From Micromonospora lupini str. Lupac 08 (GTDB taxonomy: Bacteria; Actinomycetota; Actinomycetes; Mycobacteriales; Micromonosporaceae), in the NCBI RefSeq assembly GCF_000297395.2, contig NZ_HF570108.1, positions 1,823,323 to 1,887,322 on the forward strand: DNA of 64,000 nucleotides, read 5' to 3'. The number at the start of each line of letters is the position of its first letter. Positions within the stretch are counted from its first letter, which is position 1. A program made the translations under genes and the position numbers. This document shows, one piece after another, positions 1-5,940 of the stretch. The notes under the pieces were generated by a model that searched no databases, was not told where the DNA came from, and saw nothing but the letters and a program-made list of their open reading frames with translations.

Positions 1-1422
1 CCGGGCGTCCACCTGCTCCTGCCGGGCGTGGGCCTGCACCAGCAGCCGTTCCAGGTCACGGGCTGCGGCATCGCGCTGCTGCACCGCCGCCTGCGCCGCC
101 TTGGTGGCGGCGCGCGCCGCCTTGCCGGCGGCCGTCGCGGCGGCCACCGCCGAATCCGCCGGGACCGCCGGCACCTCGGCCACCGGGTGCTCGCATACCG
201 GGCAGGGCGCGCCGGGGTGCAGGTGCACCCGCAGGCTCACCGCCAGGTCGGTGGCCTTGGCCTCCTCGTGCGCCCGGAAGGCCGCCTCCAACTCGGCGTC
301 GGCCCGCTCGGCGTCCACCCGGGCCGCGGCCAGCGCCGCCACCGCCGTCGCGTGCTCCTCGTCCGCCGCGCGCACGGCCGCGCGGACCGTGTCGGCCTCG
401 CCGGTCAGTCGATCCCGGTCGTCGTACGCCCGCAGTTGCAGGCGCAACGCGCTCTCGTCACCGGCGCCGGCCAGCTCACCGCGCAGCTTCTCCTCCCGCT
501 CCTCGGCCAGCGACACCGTCGTGGCCGCCGCGTCGGCCTCGGCCCGCGCCGCCGTCACCGCGCGGGCCACCTCGGCCACCCCACGCGGGGCACGCACCCC
601 GGACAGCACACCCAACTCGTCGTCGAGCGCGGTCAGCGCGGCCGCCGCCTCCCGCGCGCGTGCCCGGGCCGCGGCCAGCTCCGGTACGGCCCCGGTCACC
701 GCCTCGGCCAGCTCGACCATCCGGCCCACCCGGGCGTCGGCCTCGGCCAACGCCTCGTCGTCCACCCCGGTCAGACCGGCGAGCACCTGGTCGACCGCGT
801 CCAGCCGGGCCTCCGCCTGCGCGGCGCGCGCCGTCGCCCGCTTCTGCACGTCCTCGTAGACACCGAGGCCGAGCAGGTTGACCAGGATCTGCTGCCGGGT
901 CGCCGGCTTGGCGTGCAGGAAGTCGGCGAACTGCCCCTGCGGCAGCACCACGCAGCTGGTGAACTGCTCGTACGGCAGCCCGACCGCCTCCAGCACCGCC
1001 TGCTCCATCTCGGCGGGCGTCCCGGCGATCACCTCGCCGAGGTCGTCCGGGCTCAACCCGGTGTCGAGCTTGGTCACGTCGAAGCCGGCCGGCATCACCT
1101 GCAACCCGGCGTTCGCGGTCTTCACGTTGCCCCGGCCGTCGCGGCGCACCACCCGGGTCGCCACGTACCGGGCGCCGCCGGACTCGAAGACCAGCCGGAC
1201 CCGGGCCTCGGTCGCCGACGGCGCCAGCGCGTTGGCCAGGCCCCGGGTGCCGCCCCAGCGGGGCACCGTGCCGTAGAGGGCGAAACAGATGGCGTCCAGC
1301 ACTGTGGACTTGCCCGAGCCGGTGGGGCCGATCAGCGCGAAGAAGTCGGCGTCGGTGAAGTCGACTGTCGTCTCGTCCCGGAAGACGGTGAAACCGGCCA
1401 TGTCCAACCGCATCGGCCGCAT
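1..1422 (-). CDS. sbcC: Exonuclease subunit SbcC (Rad50-like), N-terminal part; runs off the window
   Basis: Only the first 474 codons lie in the window; the C-terminal part is beyond base 1. The protein opens with MRPMRLDMAGF and has a Walker A motif GPTGSGKST at residues 32-40. An Ala/Glu/Arg-rich coiled coil follows, and the zinc hook CPVC sits at residues 407-410. These are the hallmarks of SbcC/Rad50 ATPases, which dimerise through the hook and with SbcD process DNA ends and hairpins in the cytoplasm. The ATG shares one base with the TGA of sbcD (TGATG), so translation is coupled. The opposite strand is also open but is Arg/Gly/His-rich shadow. Confidence 0.96.
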   Translation of the reverse strand, partial: MRPMRLDMAGFTVFRDETTVDFTDADFFALIGPTGSGKSTVLDAICFALYGTVPRWGGTRGLANALAPSATEARVRLVFESGGARYVATRVVRRDGRGNVKTANAGLQVMPAGFDVTKLDTGLSPDDLGEVIAGTPAEMEQAVLEAVGLPYEQFTSCVVLPQGQFADFLHAKPATRQQILVNLLGLGVYEDVQKRATARAAQAEARLDAVDQVLAGLTGVDDEALAEADARVGRMVELAEAVTGAVPELAAARARAREAAAALTALDDELGVLSGVRAPRGVAEVARAVTAARAEADAAATTVSLAEEREEKLRGELAGAGDESALRLQLRAYDDRDRLTGEADTVRAAVRAADEEHATAVAALAAARVDAERADAELEAAFRAHEEAKATDLAVSLRVHLHPGAPCPVCEHPVAEVPAVPADSAVAAATAAGKAARAATKAAQAAVQQRDAAARDLERLLVQAHARQEQVDAR

Positions 1423-2570
1423 CAGTGCTCGACCTCCTCGAAGAGCTCGTCGAAGAGGTCCCGTACGCCCTCGTCGGCGTGGCCCCGGCTGTCCAGGTAG
1501 TCGCCGAACAGTTCCCGGGGTGAACGCCCCGACCGCTGCGCGATGCGCGCGCCGCTGCCCGGCGCGGCGAGCAGCTCCGGGTCGATCCGGATCTCCAGCG
1601 CCCGGGGGAGCAGCTCCTGGATCTCCTCGCGCAGGCCGGCGCGGGGCTGCTCCCGGACGAACACGCGCAGCCAGGCGTCCGGCGCCTCGATCTCGGCGAG
1701 CTGGGCCAGGGTGCCGCGCACCGTCCGCAGCGCGCTCGCGGCGGTCACCGGCACCTCCCGCACCCGGGCGGCCGTGCTCGCGGTCACCTCGACCACCGTC
1801 ACCGAGGGCACGTTCTCCTGTTCGCCGAAGTCGACGGCGAGCGGGCTGCCGCTGTAGCGCACCGGGCACGGGCCGGCGACCTGCTGCGCCCGGTGCAGGT
1901 GGCCCAGCGCCACGTAGTGGGCGGTCGCGGGGAAGACGGTGGCCGGCACCGCGTAGCCGAGCACCGTGTGCGCGTCCCGCTCACCGCCACCTGCCGCCGC
2001 GCCGGTCACCGTCAGGTGCGCGGTGACCAGGTGCACCCGGTCCGGCTCGGCGAAGCCCTCGGTGAGGCGGCCCAGCACGCGGCCCAGGTGGTCGGCGTAC
2101 GTCTGGTTGGCCTCCGCGGCGGTCAGCTCGTACATCTCCAGCGCGCGGATCGCGTACCGCTGGGACAGGAACGGCAGCGCGGCCAGCTGCCACCGTTCCC
2201 CGCCGGCCGTGGTGCCGTCGATGACGTGCTCCGCCGGGTTTTCCCGCACGCCGCCGCGCAGCGTGATGCCGGCGGCCTCGGCCCACGGCCGCAGAGCGTC
2301 CAGCGCCGGGCCGTTGTCGTGGTTGCCGCCGATCGCGACCACGTCCGCGCCGGTGCGACGCAGCGCGGTCAACGCCCGGGTGACCAGCCGGGTCGCCTCC
2401 GAGGTCGGCGCGGCCGTGTCGTAGAGGTCACCGGCGACGATCACCAGATCCGGCTGTTCGGCACGGGCGATGTCGATCACCCCTGCCAGTACGGCCTTGT
2501 GCTCCTCGGCCCGGGACTGCCCCTTGAGCACCTTGCCCACGTGCCAGTCGGAGGTGTGCAGGATCTTCAC
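1422..2570 (-). CDS. sbcD: Exonuclease subunit SbcD (Mre11-like phosphoesterase)
   Basis: 382 residues, a normal SbcD length. The calcineurin-like phosphoesterase motifs are in order: SDWH (D8, H10), GDLYD (D48), GNHD (N83, H84) and GHLH near residue 206. These residues bind the two manganese ions in the Mre11/SbcD family. The C-terminal third is the capping domain. With SbcC it forms an ATP-dependent dsDNA exonuclease and ssDNA endonuclease that cleaves hairpins and blocked ends. It lies 18 nt downstream of the HerA-like gene in the same direction and overlaps sbcC, so the three look like one operon. Confidence 0.96.
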   Translation of the reverse strand: MKILHTSDWHVGKVLKGQSRAEEHKAVLAGVIDIARAEQPDLVIVAGDLYDTAAPTSEATRLVTRALTALRRTGADVVAIGGNHDNGPALDALRPWAEAAGITLRGGVRENPAEHVIDGTTAGGERWQLAALPFLSQRYAIRALEMYELTAAEANQTYADHLGRVLGRLTEGFAEPDRVHLVTAHLTVTGAAAGGGERDAHTVLGYAVPATVFPATAHYVALGHLHRAQQVAGPCPVRYSGSPLAVDFGEQENVPSVTVVEVTASTAARVREVPVTAASALRTVRGTLAQLAEIEAPDAWLRVFVREQPRAGLREEIQELLPRALEIRIDPELLAAPGSGARIAQRSGRSPRELFGDYLDSRGHADEGVRDLFDELFEEVEH

Positions 2571-2588
2571 AGTTGCACCGGCCCCTAC

Positions 2589-4349
2589 CTAGAACGGGAT
2601 GTCGTCGTCGGTGCCGCCGCCGGAGCCCACCACGGCGAACGGGTCGGCGGACTGGGTGATCGAGCGCAGCGTCTCCGAGGGGGCGCGGCCCGCCTCGGAA
2701 ACCCGGGTGGCCCACGCCGGGAACGGGAACTCCAGGCAGAGCGGCACCGGGATGTCCGGCTGGTTGACGAACATGGTGCCCGGCTTGGCGAGCAGCGCCC
2801 GCTGCCGCTGCGCCGGCGGCAGGAAACCGTACTCCGGACGGGACGCCTCGGCCGGGTCGAGCCGGCCGACCACCCGGATCGCCGAGTTGGTGACGATGCG
2901 CCGCTCCACCTCGCTCGCCGTCTGCTGGGCGCCGATCAGGATGACCCCGAGCGACCGCCCACGCTCGGCGATGTCGAGCAGCACCTCCTTGATGGGGGAG
3001 GAGCCCTCCCGGGGCGCGTACTTGTTGAGCTCGTCGAGGACGACGAACAGCAGCGGCTTGGCCGTGCCGGACTTCTCCTTGCGCTCGAACTCGCTCTTGA
3101 GCGTCACACCGACCACGAACCGCTGGGCCCGGTCCGGAAGGTTGTGCAGGTCCACCACCGTGACCTGGGCCGACTCGCTCGTGTTGATCGAGTGCGGGCG
3201 ACGGGTCGCCAGGTCGCCACGGATCAGCCGGGCCAGGTCCTTCTTGCTGCCGATCAGCCGGCGGGCGAACGCGTTGACGGTGCCCAGGCCGACCGCGCTG
3301 CCCGCCCAGTCGGAGCGGGTCTCGTCGTCGTTGAGCGCATCGACGATGTGGTCGACCAGGTCGCCGTAGGAGCCCAGCCGGACCCCGTCGATGCTGACCC
3401 CGCCGTCGGCGGGCTGGGCGTGGCGGGCCAGGTGCGCGGTGACCGAGTGCACGACCATCGTGTACTGCTGGCGCTCGTCGTCGGCGTCGGCGAAGACGTA
3501 CGGCAGCAGGCGGTCGGCGCAGAACTCGCTGAGCGTCCAGTAGAAGGCGTCCACCCCGGTGAGCCGGCTGCTCACGTCCGGTGTGCCGGCCGCGTCGCCG
3601 ACCCGCGGCGGGGCGTACACCCGCACGTCGGGGAAGGCGCCGGCGCTCAGGCCCAGCTTCGCGTACGCCGCCCGGGTCGGCTCGTCGAGGCGCAGGTTGG
3701 GGTGGTCGAGGAACAGCAGGTCCTCGCCCTTGACGTTGAAGATCAGCGCCTTGGCGTTCACCGCGTCGCCGCCCAGGACGCCGGAGCGGAAGACCGAGTA
3801 GAGCAGGAACGTGGCGAAGCTCGTCTTGGTGGCCACCCCGGAGATGCCGGAGATGGAGACGTGCGCGCCCCGGCTGCCGTCGAGGAAGTCGGCGTTCAGG
3901 TAGACCGGAACCCCGTCGCGGCCCATGCCCATCGGGATACGCCGCTCCATCCGGTCGAAGTGCAGCGCGCGGGCCCGCGCGTCGCCCTCGGCCCGGTGCA
4001 CCACCGCCCCCGGCGTCGGCGGCACGTAGAACTCCGGGTCGACCCGGGTGGTGGTCACCTCGGCCGCCTCCTGCACCTGCGCGGGCAGCGTGCCGTCGGC
4101 GATGGCGAACACGTCGGAGTCGAACTGGGCGCCCTCGTGCCGAGCGCGGACCTGGGTGACCACCCCGGCGATCGTCACCGGCTCCCGGTCGGGCAGCTCG
4201 CGGCGGGTGACCACCACGTCGTCGAGCTGGAGGTAGCTGCCGGGCGCCACGGCCGTCCAGAACTGCAACGGGGTGGCGTCGGCGGTGCCGAGCACCCGGC
4301 CGACCGGCTGGCCCGGGCCGTCCAGGCCGTCGTGGTCGACGTCGGTCAT
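2589..4349 (-). CDS. HerA-like ATPase (DUF87/FtsK-HerA superfamily)
   Basis: 586 residues from the ATG at 4349; the frame is open for 37 codons further upstream, but that extension is Arg/Pro-rich and looks non-coding. An N-terminal HAS-barrel-like beta domain is followed by a P-loop region GISGVATKTS (residues 168-177), a Walker B LLFVVLDE (433-440) and a GAQQTASEVERR segment near 473-484 that fits the sensor/arginine region of HerA helicases. The P-loop departs from the GxxxxGK[ST] consensus. HerA ATPases form hexameric rings that translocate duplex DNA and in archaea work with NurA, Mre11 and Rad50. Co-orientation with sbcD and sbcC suggests a role in end resection; no NurA-like gene is visible. 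Confidence 0.85.
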   Translation of the reverse strand: MTDVDHDGLDGPGQPVGRVLGTADATPLQFWTAVAPGSYLQLDDVVVTRRELPDREPVTIAGVVTQVRARHEGAQFDSDVFAIADGTLPAQVQEAAEVTTTRVDPEFYVPPTPGAVVHRAEGDARARALHFDRMERRIPMGMGRDGVPVYLNADFLDGSRGAHVSISGISGVATKTSFATFLLYSVFRSGVLGGDAVNAKALIFNVKGEDLLFLDHPNLRLDEPTRAAYAKLGLSAGAFPDVRVYAPPRVGDAAGTPDVSSRLTGVDAFYWTLSEFCADRLLPYVFADADDERQQYTMVVHSVTAHLARHAQPADGGVSIDGVRLGSYGDLVDHIVDALNDDETRSDWAGSAVGLGTVNAFARRLIGSKKDLARLIRGDLATRRPHSINTSESAQVTVVDLHNLPDRAQRFVVGVTLKSEFERKEKSGTAKPLLFVVLDELNKYAPREGSSPIKEVLLDIAERGRSLGVILIGAQQTASEVERRIVTNSAIRVVGRLDPAEASRPEYGFLPPAQRQRALLAKPGTMFVNQPDIPVPLCLEFPFPAWATRVSEAGRAPSETLRSITQSADPFAVVGSGGGTDDDIPF

Positions 4350-4450
4350 CGGGCGGGGTGGGTCGGTCGGGCAACGCGGTCGGGGCACATGCCCGTCATC
4401 CTGCCCGAGGAGTACGACAGGTCGCCACGCGACGCGGCGGAGGACACGAT

Positions 4451-4488
4451 GCCCGGTCACACTCGCGACGCTGGGTGTGTGACCGGGC
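4451..4488 (-). terminator. Hairpin terminator after the RibD-like gene
   Basis: A perfect 12-bp inverted repeat (GCCCGGTCACAC at 4451-4462 and its complement at 4477-4488, 14-nt loop) starts 10 nt beyond the stop codon of the minus-strand reductase gene and lies upstream of the HerA-like gene. Confidence 0.6.
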
Positions 4489-4497
4489 GACGGTTCG

Positions 4498-5244
4498 TCA
4501 CCCGCGGGCGTGGCGGAGCATGAGGACGCCGTCGTCGGCGGCGAGCACGTGCCGCAGCGGCAGGTGCCGGGGCGCGCCGGCGTCGCCGGCGGTGATCCGG
4601 CCCGCGCCGGGGCCGGCGAGCAGCGGCGCGACGGTGAGGCACAGCTCGTCCACCAGGTCGGCGGCGGTGAGCGCGCCGAGCAGGTGCGGGCCGCCCTCGC
4701 AGAGCAGTTGGGTCAGCCCGCGCCGGTGCAGCTCGGCGAGGCCGGCGGCGAGGTCGACCCGGTCGGTCCCGCAGCGCAGCAGGTCGGCGACGTCGGTCAG
4801 GCCGGGCGGCGGGTCGGCGTCGGCGCGGGTGAGCACGATCGGCCGGACCGGGGCGTCGGCGAAGGCGGCCTGCGCCGGGTCCAGGTCGAGAGAGCCGGAG
4901 ACGACCACCAGAGTCGGGTACGCGGCCACCCCGTTCGCCCGACGCCAGGCGCGTCGGCCCTCGTCGAGGCGGACCGCCCGGTACCCCTCGTGGCGCAGGG
5001 TGCCGGCGGCCACCACCAGGGCGTCGCAGAGCATCCGCAGCAGGCCGAAGACCCGCTTGTCCGGCTCGCCGGACAGGCCGGCGGAGTAGCCGCCCACACT
5101 TACCGCGCCGTCCAGGCTGGCGACGAAGTTGACCCGCAGCCGGGGCTGGTCGCCGCGGCGGTAGAGCGCGGTGAGCGCGGCGTCGTCGAGCGGCTCGGTG
5201 GACGGCTCGGGCCAGAGCCGCCGGATCGGGATTCCGACCGTCAT
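4498..5244 (-). CDS. Pyrimidine reductase family protein (RibD C-terminal domain)
   Basis: 248 residues forming a single RibD C-terminal / dihydrofolate-reductase-like fold. Visible motifs include RVNFVASLDGAVS near the N-terminus (residues 32-44), a LVVAAGTLRHEGY stretch and LLCEGGPHLLG in the C-terminal half. This family reduces the ribosyl side chain of a pyrimidine using NADPH in riboflavin or related deazaflavin pathways. No deaminase domain is fused, and no other rib genes are nearby, so it may be a stand-alone paralogue with another substrate. The start is the ATG at 5244, which overlaps the stop of the 39-residue Cys-rich gene by ATGA. Confidence 0.9.
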   Translation of the reverse strand: MTVGIPIRRLWPEPSTEPLDDAALTALYRRGDQPRLRVNFVASLDGAVSVGGYSAGLSGEPDKRVFGLLRMLCDALVVAAGTLRHEGYRAVRLDEGRRAWRRANGVAAYPTLVVVSGSLDLDPAQAAFADAPVRPIVLTRADADPPPGLTDVADLLRCGTDRVDLAAGLAELHRRGLTQLLCEGGPHLLGALTAADLVDELCLTVAPLLAGPGAGRITAGDAGAPRHLPLRHVLAADDGVLMLRHARG

Positions 5245-5360
5245 TCGCCGGCCGGACCGGTGACCGGAGGGGTCGGTTCGGCGGTACGGTGCTGGCAGTC
5301 GCACCAGTTCCGGCCCGGGCAGTCGTCGTGCCGCCGGGCCCGGCACGCTCGGCAGATCAT
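5241..5360 (-). CDS. 39-residue cysteine-rich (CxxC, CDCQH) putative metal-binding protein
   Basis: A short gene of 39 residues beginning MICRACRARRHDDC and containing WCDCQH. Cysteines at 3, 6, 14, 20 and 22 and histidines at 11 and 24 could bind zinc or an iron-sulfur cluster. Its TGA overlaps the ATG of the RibD-like reductase as ATGA, the coupling typical of actinobacterial operons, which supports a real gene. I recall similar tiny CxxC...WCDCxH proteins in related actinomycetes but cannot name a family. The function is unknown; a partner or metal-delivery role for the downstream reductase is only inference. It is divergent from the pRiA4b-type gene, with 34 nt between the starts. Confidence 0.7.
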   Translation of the reverse strand: MICRACRARRHDDCPGRNWCDCQHRTAEPTPPVTGPAGE

Positions 5361-5394
5361 GCTCGCAGCCTAAGCCGCCGGAGGACAGGACAGC

Positions 5395-5940
5395 ATGCCG
5401 CGTCAGATCTTCCAGTTGAAGATGTCCCTCGCCGGCGTACGTCCGCCGGTGTGGCGTCGGGTGCTCGTCCCGGCCGGCTACACGCTGGACCGGCTGCACC
5501 GGGTCGCCCAGCACGCCATGGGCTGGCGGGACTGCCACCTGCACTCGTTCGAGATCGACGCGGTGGCGTACGGCGAGCCGGACCCGGACGGGGGTCTGGC
5601 GCTGCACGACGAGCTGGACGTCCGGCTGGACGCGGTGCTCGGCAAGGGCAGCAGGTTCTCCTACACCTACGACTTCGGTGACTGGTGGGAGCACGACCTG
5701 GTCGTGGAGGACGCGCTGACCGCCGACCACGACGAGCGGTACCCGATCTGCCTGGACGGCGAAATGGCCTGCCCCCCGGAGGGCATCGGTGGGCCGCCCG
5801 GCTACCAGGCCCTGCTCGCGGCGCTTGCCGATCCGACCCGTCCGGAGTCCGCCGTGCTGCGGGGCTGGGCCGGCGACGCGTTCGACCCGACGTTCTTCGA
5901 TCCGACCGTCGCCACCACGCTGCTGCGCCGCTTCTGCTGA
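5395..5940 (+). CDS. Plasmid pRiA4b ORF-3 family protein
   Basis: 181 residues matching the pRiA4b ORF-3-like family: IFQLKMSLAGVRPPVWRRV at the start, LDRLHRVAQHAMGW, then the signature YDFGDWWEHDLVVED (around residues 91-105), and a Pro/Gly-rich CPPEGIGGPPGY segment. The family is widespread on plasmids and chromosomes; no biochemical function is established. A GGAGGA ribosome site lies about 10 nt before the ATG. It stands alone, divergent from the Cys-rich/RibD-like pair and upstream of the cellobiose operon promoter. Confidence 0.9.
   Translation: MPRQIFQLKMSLAGVRPPVWRRVLVPAGYTLDRLHRVAQHAMGWRDCHLHSFEIDAVAYGEPDPDGGLALHDELDVRLDAVLGKGSRFSYTYDFGDWWEHDLVVEDALTADHDERYPICLDGEMACPPEGIGGPPGYQALLAALADPTRPESAVLRGWAGDAFDPTFFDPTVATTLLRRFC

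Follow-up and report, generated by a model that had tools for sequence, protein, structure and literature searches.

Does a 39-codon open reading frame that ends on the start codon of a reductase gene encode a protein in its own right, and if so, what is this protein to its neighbor? We examined this question in a 64,000-nucleotide stretch of Micromonospora lupini str. Lupac 08 DNA, hereafter the window, where the original prediction had described a 39-residue Cys-rich ORF sharing ATGA with a reductase gene. We found this ORF at 5241..5360, on the minus strand, which the prediction had left unstated. Translation of 5360..5241 (minus) yields MICRACRARRHDDCPGRNWCDCQHRTAEPTPPVTGPAGE, a miniprotein of 39 amino acids with cysteines at positions 3, 6, 14, 20, and 22 and histidines at positions 11 and 24. 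Its core, C-x2-C-x4-H-x2-C-x5-C-D-C-Q-H, spans residues 3-24 and is followed by a Pro/Gly tail (residues 25-39). The stop codon overlaps the start codon of the reductase ORF in the ATGA at 5241..5244 (minus), an overlap that is kept in relatives. The reductase, RibD_C (4498..5244, minus, 248 amino acids), matches Pfam RibD_C with E 3.2e-29, and its top NCBIfam models are those of PRK14059, "pyrimidine reductase family," with scores below the curated cut-offs. A search of this genome returned a single copy of the miniprotein gene, the second-best stretch having an E value of 0.08. We consider it rather likely that this is a genuine miniprotein, probably zinc-holding, whose gene is read from a leaderless mRNA and both makes a protein acting in trans and loads ribosomes onto RibD_C, the pair having arisen by loss of an AFG1 ATPase gene.

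The miniprotein is common to several actinobacterial groups and some viruses. Matches at E 1e-14 or better were obtained in 37/37 genomes of the genus, our own genome counted. For genomes of other families in the same search, 4/24 gave E 4.4e-7 or better, and the others 0.018 or worse; the tally of 59/61 for this genus-level search admits E values as high as 1, and beyond the genus it consists mainly of chance matches. At E 0.001, we detected the miniprotein in 139/200 genomes and 30/44 genera of the Micromonospora family, and, with candidates partly scored, in at least 40/200 genomes and 10/60 genera of the order sample and in at least 46/394 genomes and 19/137 genera of the class sample. The remaining 348/394 class genomes had no miniprotein match among candidates scored in part only. 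A phylum-wide search with partly scored candidates gave at least 14/296 matches at E 0.01 and nothing better than E 2e-4 outside the class. The order, class, and family samples overlap, and related genomes are non-independent samples. The best 80 of 240 named matches belonged to Micromonospora, two Verrucosispora, and one Micromonosporaceae isolate. Plasmid and named-phage searches with the miniprotein returned no match. One genome (G438, contig 5, 102581-103514) held three miniprotein matches, of which two are partial, inside a 1-kb stretch; the three are perhaps tandem copies.

No named family accounts for these sequences: the miniprotein family is without a name in our Pfam, NCBIfam, PHROGs, and PDB searches. 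A Pfam scan of 40 members with E values up to 1 returned four unrelated weak families, the best being TNFR_nem at E 0.005 in 2 members. NCBIfam gave 0 miniprotein matches at E 1, the best PHROGs hit (E 0.0069) was to an unnamed family, and the best PDB sequence match had E 1.1. Literature searches, limited to search listings, produced no description of the miniprotein and none with the motif WCDCQH. This adds a widely conserved gene that is missing from the profile libraries searched.

The conserved residues Cys3, Cys6, His11, Cys14, Cys20, Cys22, and His24 are the probable ligands of one or two zinc ions; on general chemical grounds, seven ligands could bind two metals with one shared cysteine, or a single metal with ligands to spare. 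A structural model built with 44 sequences was of middling confidence (pLDDT 76, pTM 0.42) and contained one short helix, and Foldseek and VIA-align found no match to it. Given the middling model and the empty Foldseek search, the metal geometry is only putative. The haloarchaeal zinc-finger micro-proteins provide one comparison. These are exemplified by HVO_0758 and carry two C(P)XCG motifs with four cysteines; like the miniprotein, they are free-standing, Cys-rich, under 70 amino acids, and widely conserved within one clade (PMC10716476). The miniprotein has five cysteines and two histidines.

What might such a protein do? The miniprotein core is present on 34 viral contigs (L238-L271), several times as an ORF of ~30 residues without the tail. 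It may be a zinc-knuckle-like nucleic-acid binder serving DNA repair or recombination in both host and phage, which would be a special case of our preferred explanation; nucleic-acid binding is our favored, if tentative, guess for its role. An Arg-rich stretch lies between the ligands. As a raw proportion, 13/34 viral loci have, within ~3 kb, a protein from a cluster for which the single member tested resembled a Sak4-like annealing protein, an exonuclease, a polymerase, or a primase; two of the 13 (L260 and L261) look alike in all listed features. AidB also neighbors the miniprotein gene in two host families, f34 (upstream, 5/6 loci) and f22 (a single locus). Against this reading, the ten viral neighbor proteins tested included one tail protein and two without a match, and host neighbors vary between families. 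Another of the ten had a weak methyltransferase-like match. The CCHC zinc knuckle has the pattern C-x2-C-x4-H-x4-C. The miniprotein shares the C-x2-C-x4-H spacing of the first three ligands but departs from it in H-x2-C and a second C-x-C-x-H, and none of the 40 members scanned had a zinc-knuckle match in Pfam.

We then considered how the miniprotein gene is expressed. A strict sigma-70 scan of the window locus detected no promoter. Comparison of upstream regions, on the other hand, revealed an xANNNT hexamer (mostly TAGGCT) ending 6 nt 5' of the ATG in 43/43 distinct upstreams from L001 and L008-L057, against a background of 0.05 per position. In the window, the predicted -10 element is the TAGGCT at 5367..5372 (minus), 6 nt 5' of the ATG. 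Across L058-L109, which include four loci from other families and one stretch that was perhaps counted twice, 34 of the 51 distinct upstreams had a -10-like element at a spacing of 6 and 10 at a spacing of 7. TTGACC-like -35 elements were discerned by eye in several upstreams. Leaderless genes have this layout, and the position of the -10-like element suggests a leaderless mRNA, which probably begins at the miniprotein ATG itself. A divergent PRiA4_ORF3-like gene, outside the operon, lies head to head with the miniprotein gene at 5395..5940 (plus), 34 bp from its start, and the same layout recurs in many family loci.

At the other end of the gene, the RTGA overlap was kept in 71/99 fetched family loci and in 50/51 of the Micromonospora-like set (L001 and L008-L057). 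The other 28/99 loci had no RTGA overlap, 6 of them having no RibD_C in the fetched stretch. An SD-like tetramer preceded the RTGA point in 10/99 family loci. At the sequence level, the coupling of the two genes is real. We propose that in the Micromonospora family the miniprotein gene opens a small operon read from a leaderless mRNA and that ribosomes finishing at its TGA would restart on the overlapping RibD_C ATG, mostly without a Shine-Dalgarno-like site. The gene would thereby have a dual job in this family, encoding a protein that acts in trans and loading ribosomes onto RibD_C.

This arrangement has a precedent. RTGA-coupled leaderless small ORFs are overrepresented in mycobacteria, as Shell et al. 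2015 report (PMC4633059). Like those ORFs, the miniprotein gene is a short ORF with an RTG at the predicted 5' end of the transcript, in the -1 frame and with an RTGA overlap (PMC4633059). In the Fig. 6B example of that paper, coupling alone is conserved and the peptide is not, and other, uncoupled uORFs are conserved (PMC4633059). Unlike the Fig. 6B example, the miniprotein is conserved across families, and its gene also occurs uncoupled.

All seven Cys/His residues (5C2H) were kept in 98/99 fetched family loci; in the sole exception, G137, several ligands were lost, yet the frame remained open and the overlap was retained. These 99 loci represent 98 genomes (G096 twice) and were BLAST matches hand-picked across the list, of which 86 distinct 39-amino acid sequences were used. 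The genus pN/pS was 0.256 (43 distinct sequences), or 0.393 when the ligands and WCDCQH were excluded, and the family pN/pS was 0.321 (86 distinct sequences). Ligand codons gave 0.000 in the genus and 0.006 in the family. In a six-frame test with 66 sequences, pN fell below pS only in the miniprotein frame (0.256) and in one antisense frame (0.399). The six-frame set was chosen with a motif filter, and the pN/pS analysis was repeated on the 99 loci without one. Because alignment A1 drew on CDCQH-containing proteins and one further protein, and the viral loci were found via WCDCQH and tail patterns, the invariance of those residues in alignments A1 and A2 is in part a product of the selection.

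Synonymous sites revealed a second layer of constraint. For the 27 loci with a RibD_C of 247-248 amino acids, to which this comparison was confined, synonymous differences in the miniprotein ORF amounted to 0.45 of the RibD_C-based expectation. The ratio was lowest next to the RibD_C start (0.17, codons 33-39) and reached 0.99 in codons 9-16. Because the ORF has fewer synonymous differences than RibD_C, part of the constraint acts on nucleotides; the coupling and the promoter of the divergent gene are candidate sources.

Such constraint, strongest next to the RibD_C start, would also be expected of a cis-acting leader in which the peptide is irrelevant and translation of the Cys codons senses the cysteine or redox state and sets RibD_C translation. 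Polycysteine leaderless attenuators of mycobacteria were reportedly described by Canestrari et al. in 2020, and leaderless ORFs of this kind are the model for this alternative. The miniprotein ORF is likewise Cys-rich, leaderless-like, the first ORF in its operon, and coupled through RTGA, and shortened versions, described below, remain coupled although most of the peptide is gone. Several observations make the leader an unlikely explanation nonetheless. Polycysteine leaderless attenuators carry contiguous Cys codons (PMC9031893). The Cys codons of the miniprotein are instead dispersed over its 39 codons in a fixed pattern, both histidines are retained together with the cysteines in all but one of the 99 fetched family loci, and the downstream RibD_C lies outside cysteine metabolism. 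The f34 loci, in which AidB lies upstream of the miniprotein gene and the next downstream gene is on the opposite strand in 4 loci, also argue against a leader, as do the viral copies of the core. An RNA alignment of 18 sequences, examined for structure over the downstream start, gave no covariation support either (covariation term +0.31, with a double change in 1/20 pairs). Finally, all f31 loci (7/7) have another short ORF, with the ending ...RSAIC, between the miniprotein gene and sirA. On these observations, we rejected a pure cysteine attenuator.

This second f31 ORF, which looks leaderless by eye, is itself likely to be a cysteine leader. Its RSAIC ending occurs in L225, L226, L227, L230, L234, L235, and L236, as RSAICC in three of them, at most 5 residues from the stop codon.

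Returning to the preferred reading, in which the miniprotein acts in trans, we asked whether RibD_C is its target. The original prediction proposed a dedicated partner, either a metal chaperone or a subunit, of stand-alone RibD_C reductases. Adjacency within the family favors this: RibD_C lies directly 3' of the miniprotein gene in 126/132 family genomes with both matches listed, the other 6 having it 4-6 kb away (five) or on a separate contig (one). An older, looser linkage points the same way, as a good RibD_C match was found on the same contig within ~30 kb in 7/12 genomes checked. The two genes are therefore old neighbors and may have a looser functional tie.

A dedicated partnership is very improbable, however. 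RibD_C occurred in 197/200 family genomes (E 1e-20) versus 139/200 for the miniprotein. Among the 139 miniprotein genomes, 7 had no listed RibD_C match, including G205, which had none at E 1e-20. G036 and G205 keep the miniprotein and have only RibD_C-like proteins of 34-40% identity; G257 has only such proteins of 29-30% identity. Calling the RibD_C-like proteins of G036, G205, and G257 paralogues is a judgement from identity.

Moreover, outside the Micromonospora family and f13, the miniprotein gene adjoins other genes. It is next to glgX, mostly with treY, in f10 (6/7 loci), f12, f24, f32, and 1/2 f5 loci, and next to sirA-cysH in f31 (7/7 loci). In f34, where the AidB stop codon overlaps the miniprotein start in 3/5 loci, sirA-cysH is found further along in 4. 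One locus each of f10, f5, and f34 had none of glgX/treY, sirA-cysH, or AidB. We therefore rejected a RibD_C-specific partner on the grounds of these other neighbors, the unequal occurrence of the two genes, G036 and G205, and the probable loss of AFG1, which would account for the adjacency. What stands of the original prediction is a conserved Cys/His miniprotein whose gene overlaps the reductase start; the partnership with stand-alone RibD_C reductases is not supported.

A chance ORF was rejected because the frame and the cysteines are conserved and under purifying selection. Cys density is insufficient to settle the reality of the gene (of 4428 open-frame tiles of 24 residues across the window, 12 hold at least 5 cysteines); conservation does settle it, and the ORF is a genuine gene. 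The original prediction had named loss of the reading frame or of the cysteines in related genomes as the outcome that would speak against it, and we clearly observed the opposite, in 37/37 genus genomes, 139/200 family genomes, and the seven Cys/His of 98/99 loci.

How, then, did the two genes come to overlap? In f13, the order is miniprotein, AFG1 ATPase (on the opposite strand), and RibD_C in 5/5 loci, AFG1 beginning 2.8 kb away in one of them. AFG1 adjoins RibD_C in G055, G410, and G306 and does not in G348. We found AFG1 in 0/101 genomes (44 genera) of the Micromonospora family. Taken with the f13 order, this absence suggests that loss of AFG1 probably created the pair by bringing the miniprotein gene and RibD_C together.

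We also surveyed the bases 5' of RibD_C at 37 loci in 34 family genomes without a recognised miniprotein gene. All six g40 loci (6/6) kept the -10-like element and the ATG but lacked the N-terminal half; the remaining ORF of 21-22 amino acids reads MSCDCQHRTP plus 11-12 residues and ends in RTGA at RibD_C. Two g46 loci had four codons, V-I-G-A, up to the RTGA at RibD_C, and a third had 16 residues with a CxxC start and a 7-nt overlap with RibD_C. The four-codon frames may be remnants, going by their retained -10-like element and start context. In 20/37 loci, a loose leaderless pattern lay at a start codon in frame with RibD_C. Since the shortened ORFs still end on the RibD_C start, the loading arrangement seems to outlast the protein. 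These living intermediates suggest how a leaderless small gene can turn into a translation start device for its neighbor, and they keep apart two questions often mixed for small ORFs, whether selection acts on the peptide and whether it acts on the translating itself.

In its widest form, the proposal would be a new family of 25-60-amino acid zinc-binding proteins in several actinobacterial families and viruses, possibly binding nucleic acids in both; in one bacterial family, such a gene, set in front of an enzyme gene by a deletion, would have become its ribosome loading site and kept that function through a shortening from 39 codons to 22 and then 4. As a whole, we put this forward as speculative. 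Two minor observations complete the description. In L104 (G013, same genus), the copy is frameshifted past the core and 111 residues long, which is either genuine or a sequencing error. In the window, 3' of RibD_C, positions 1422-4460 (minus) contain an SbcD-like nuclease gene and a 623-amino acid ORF without a Pfam match.
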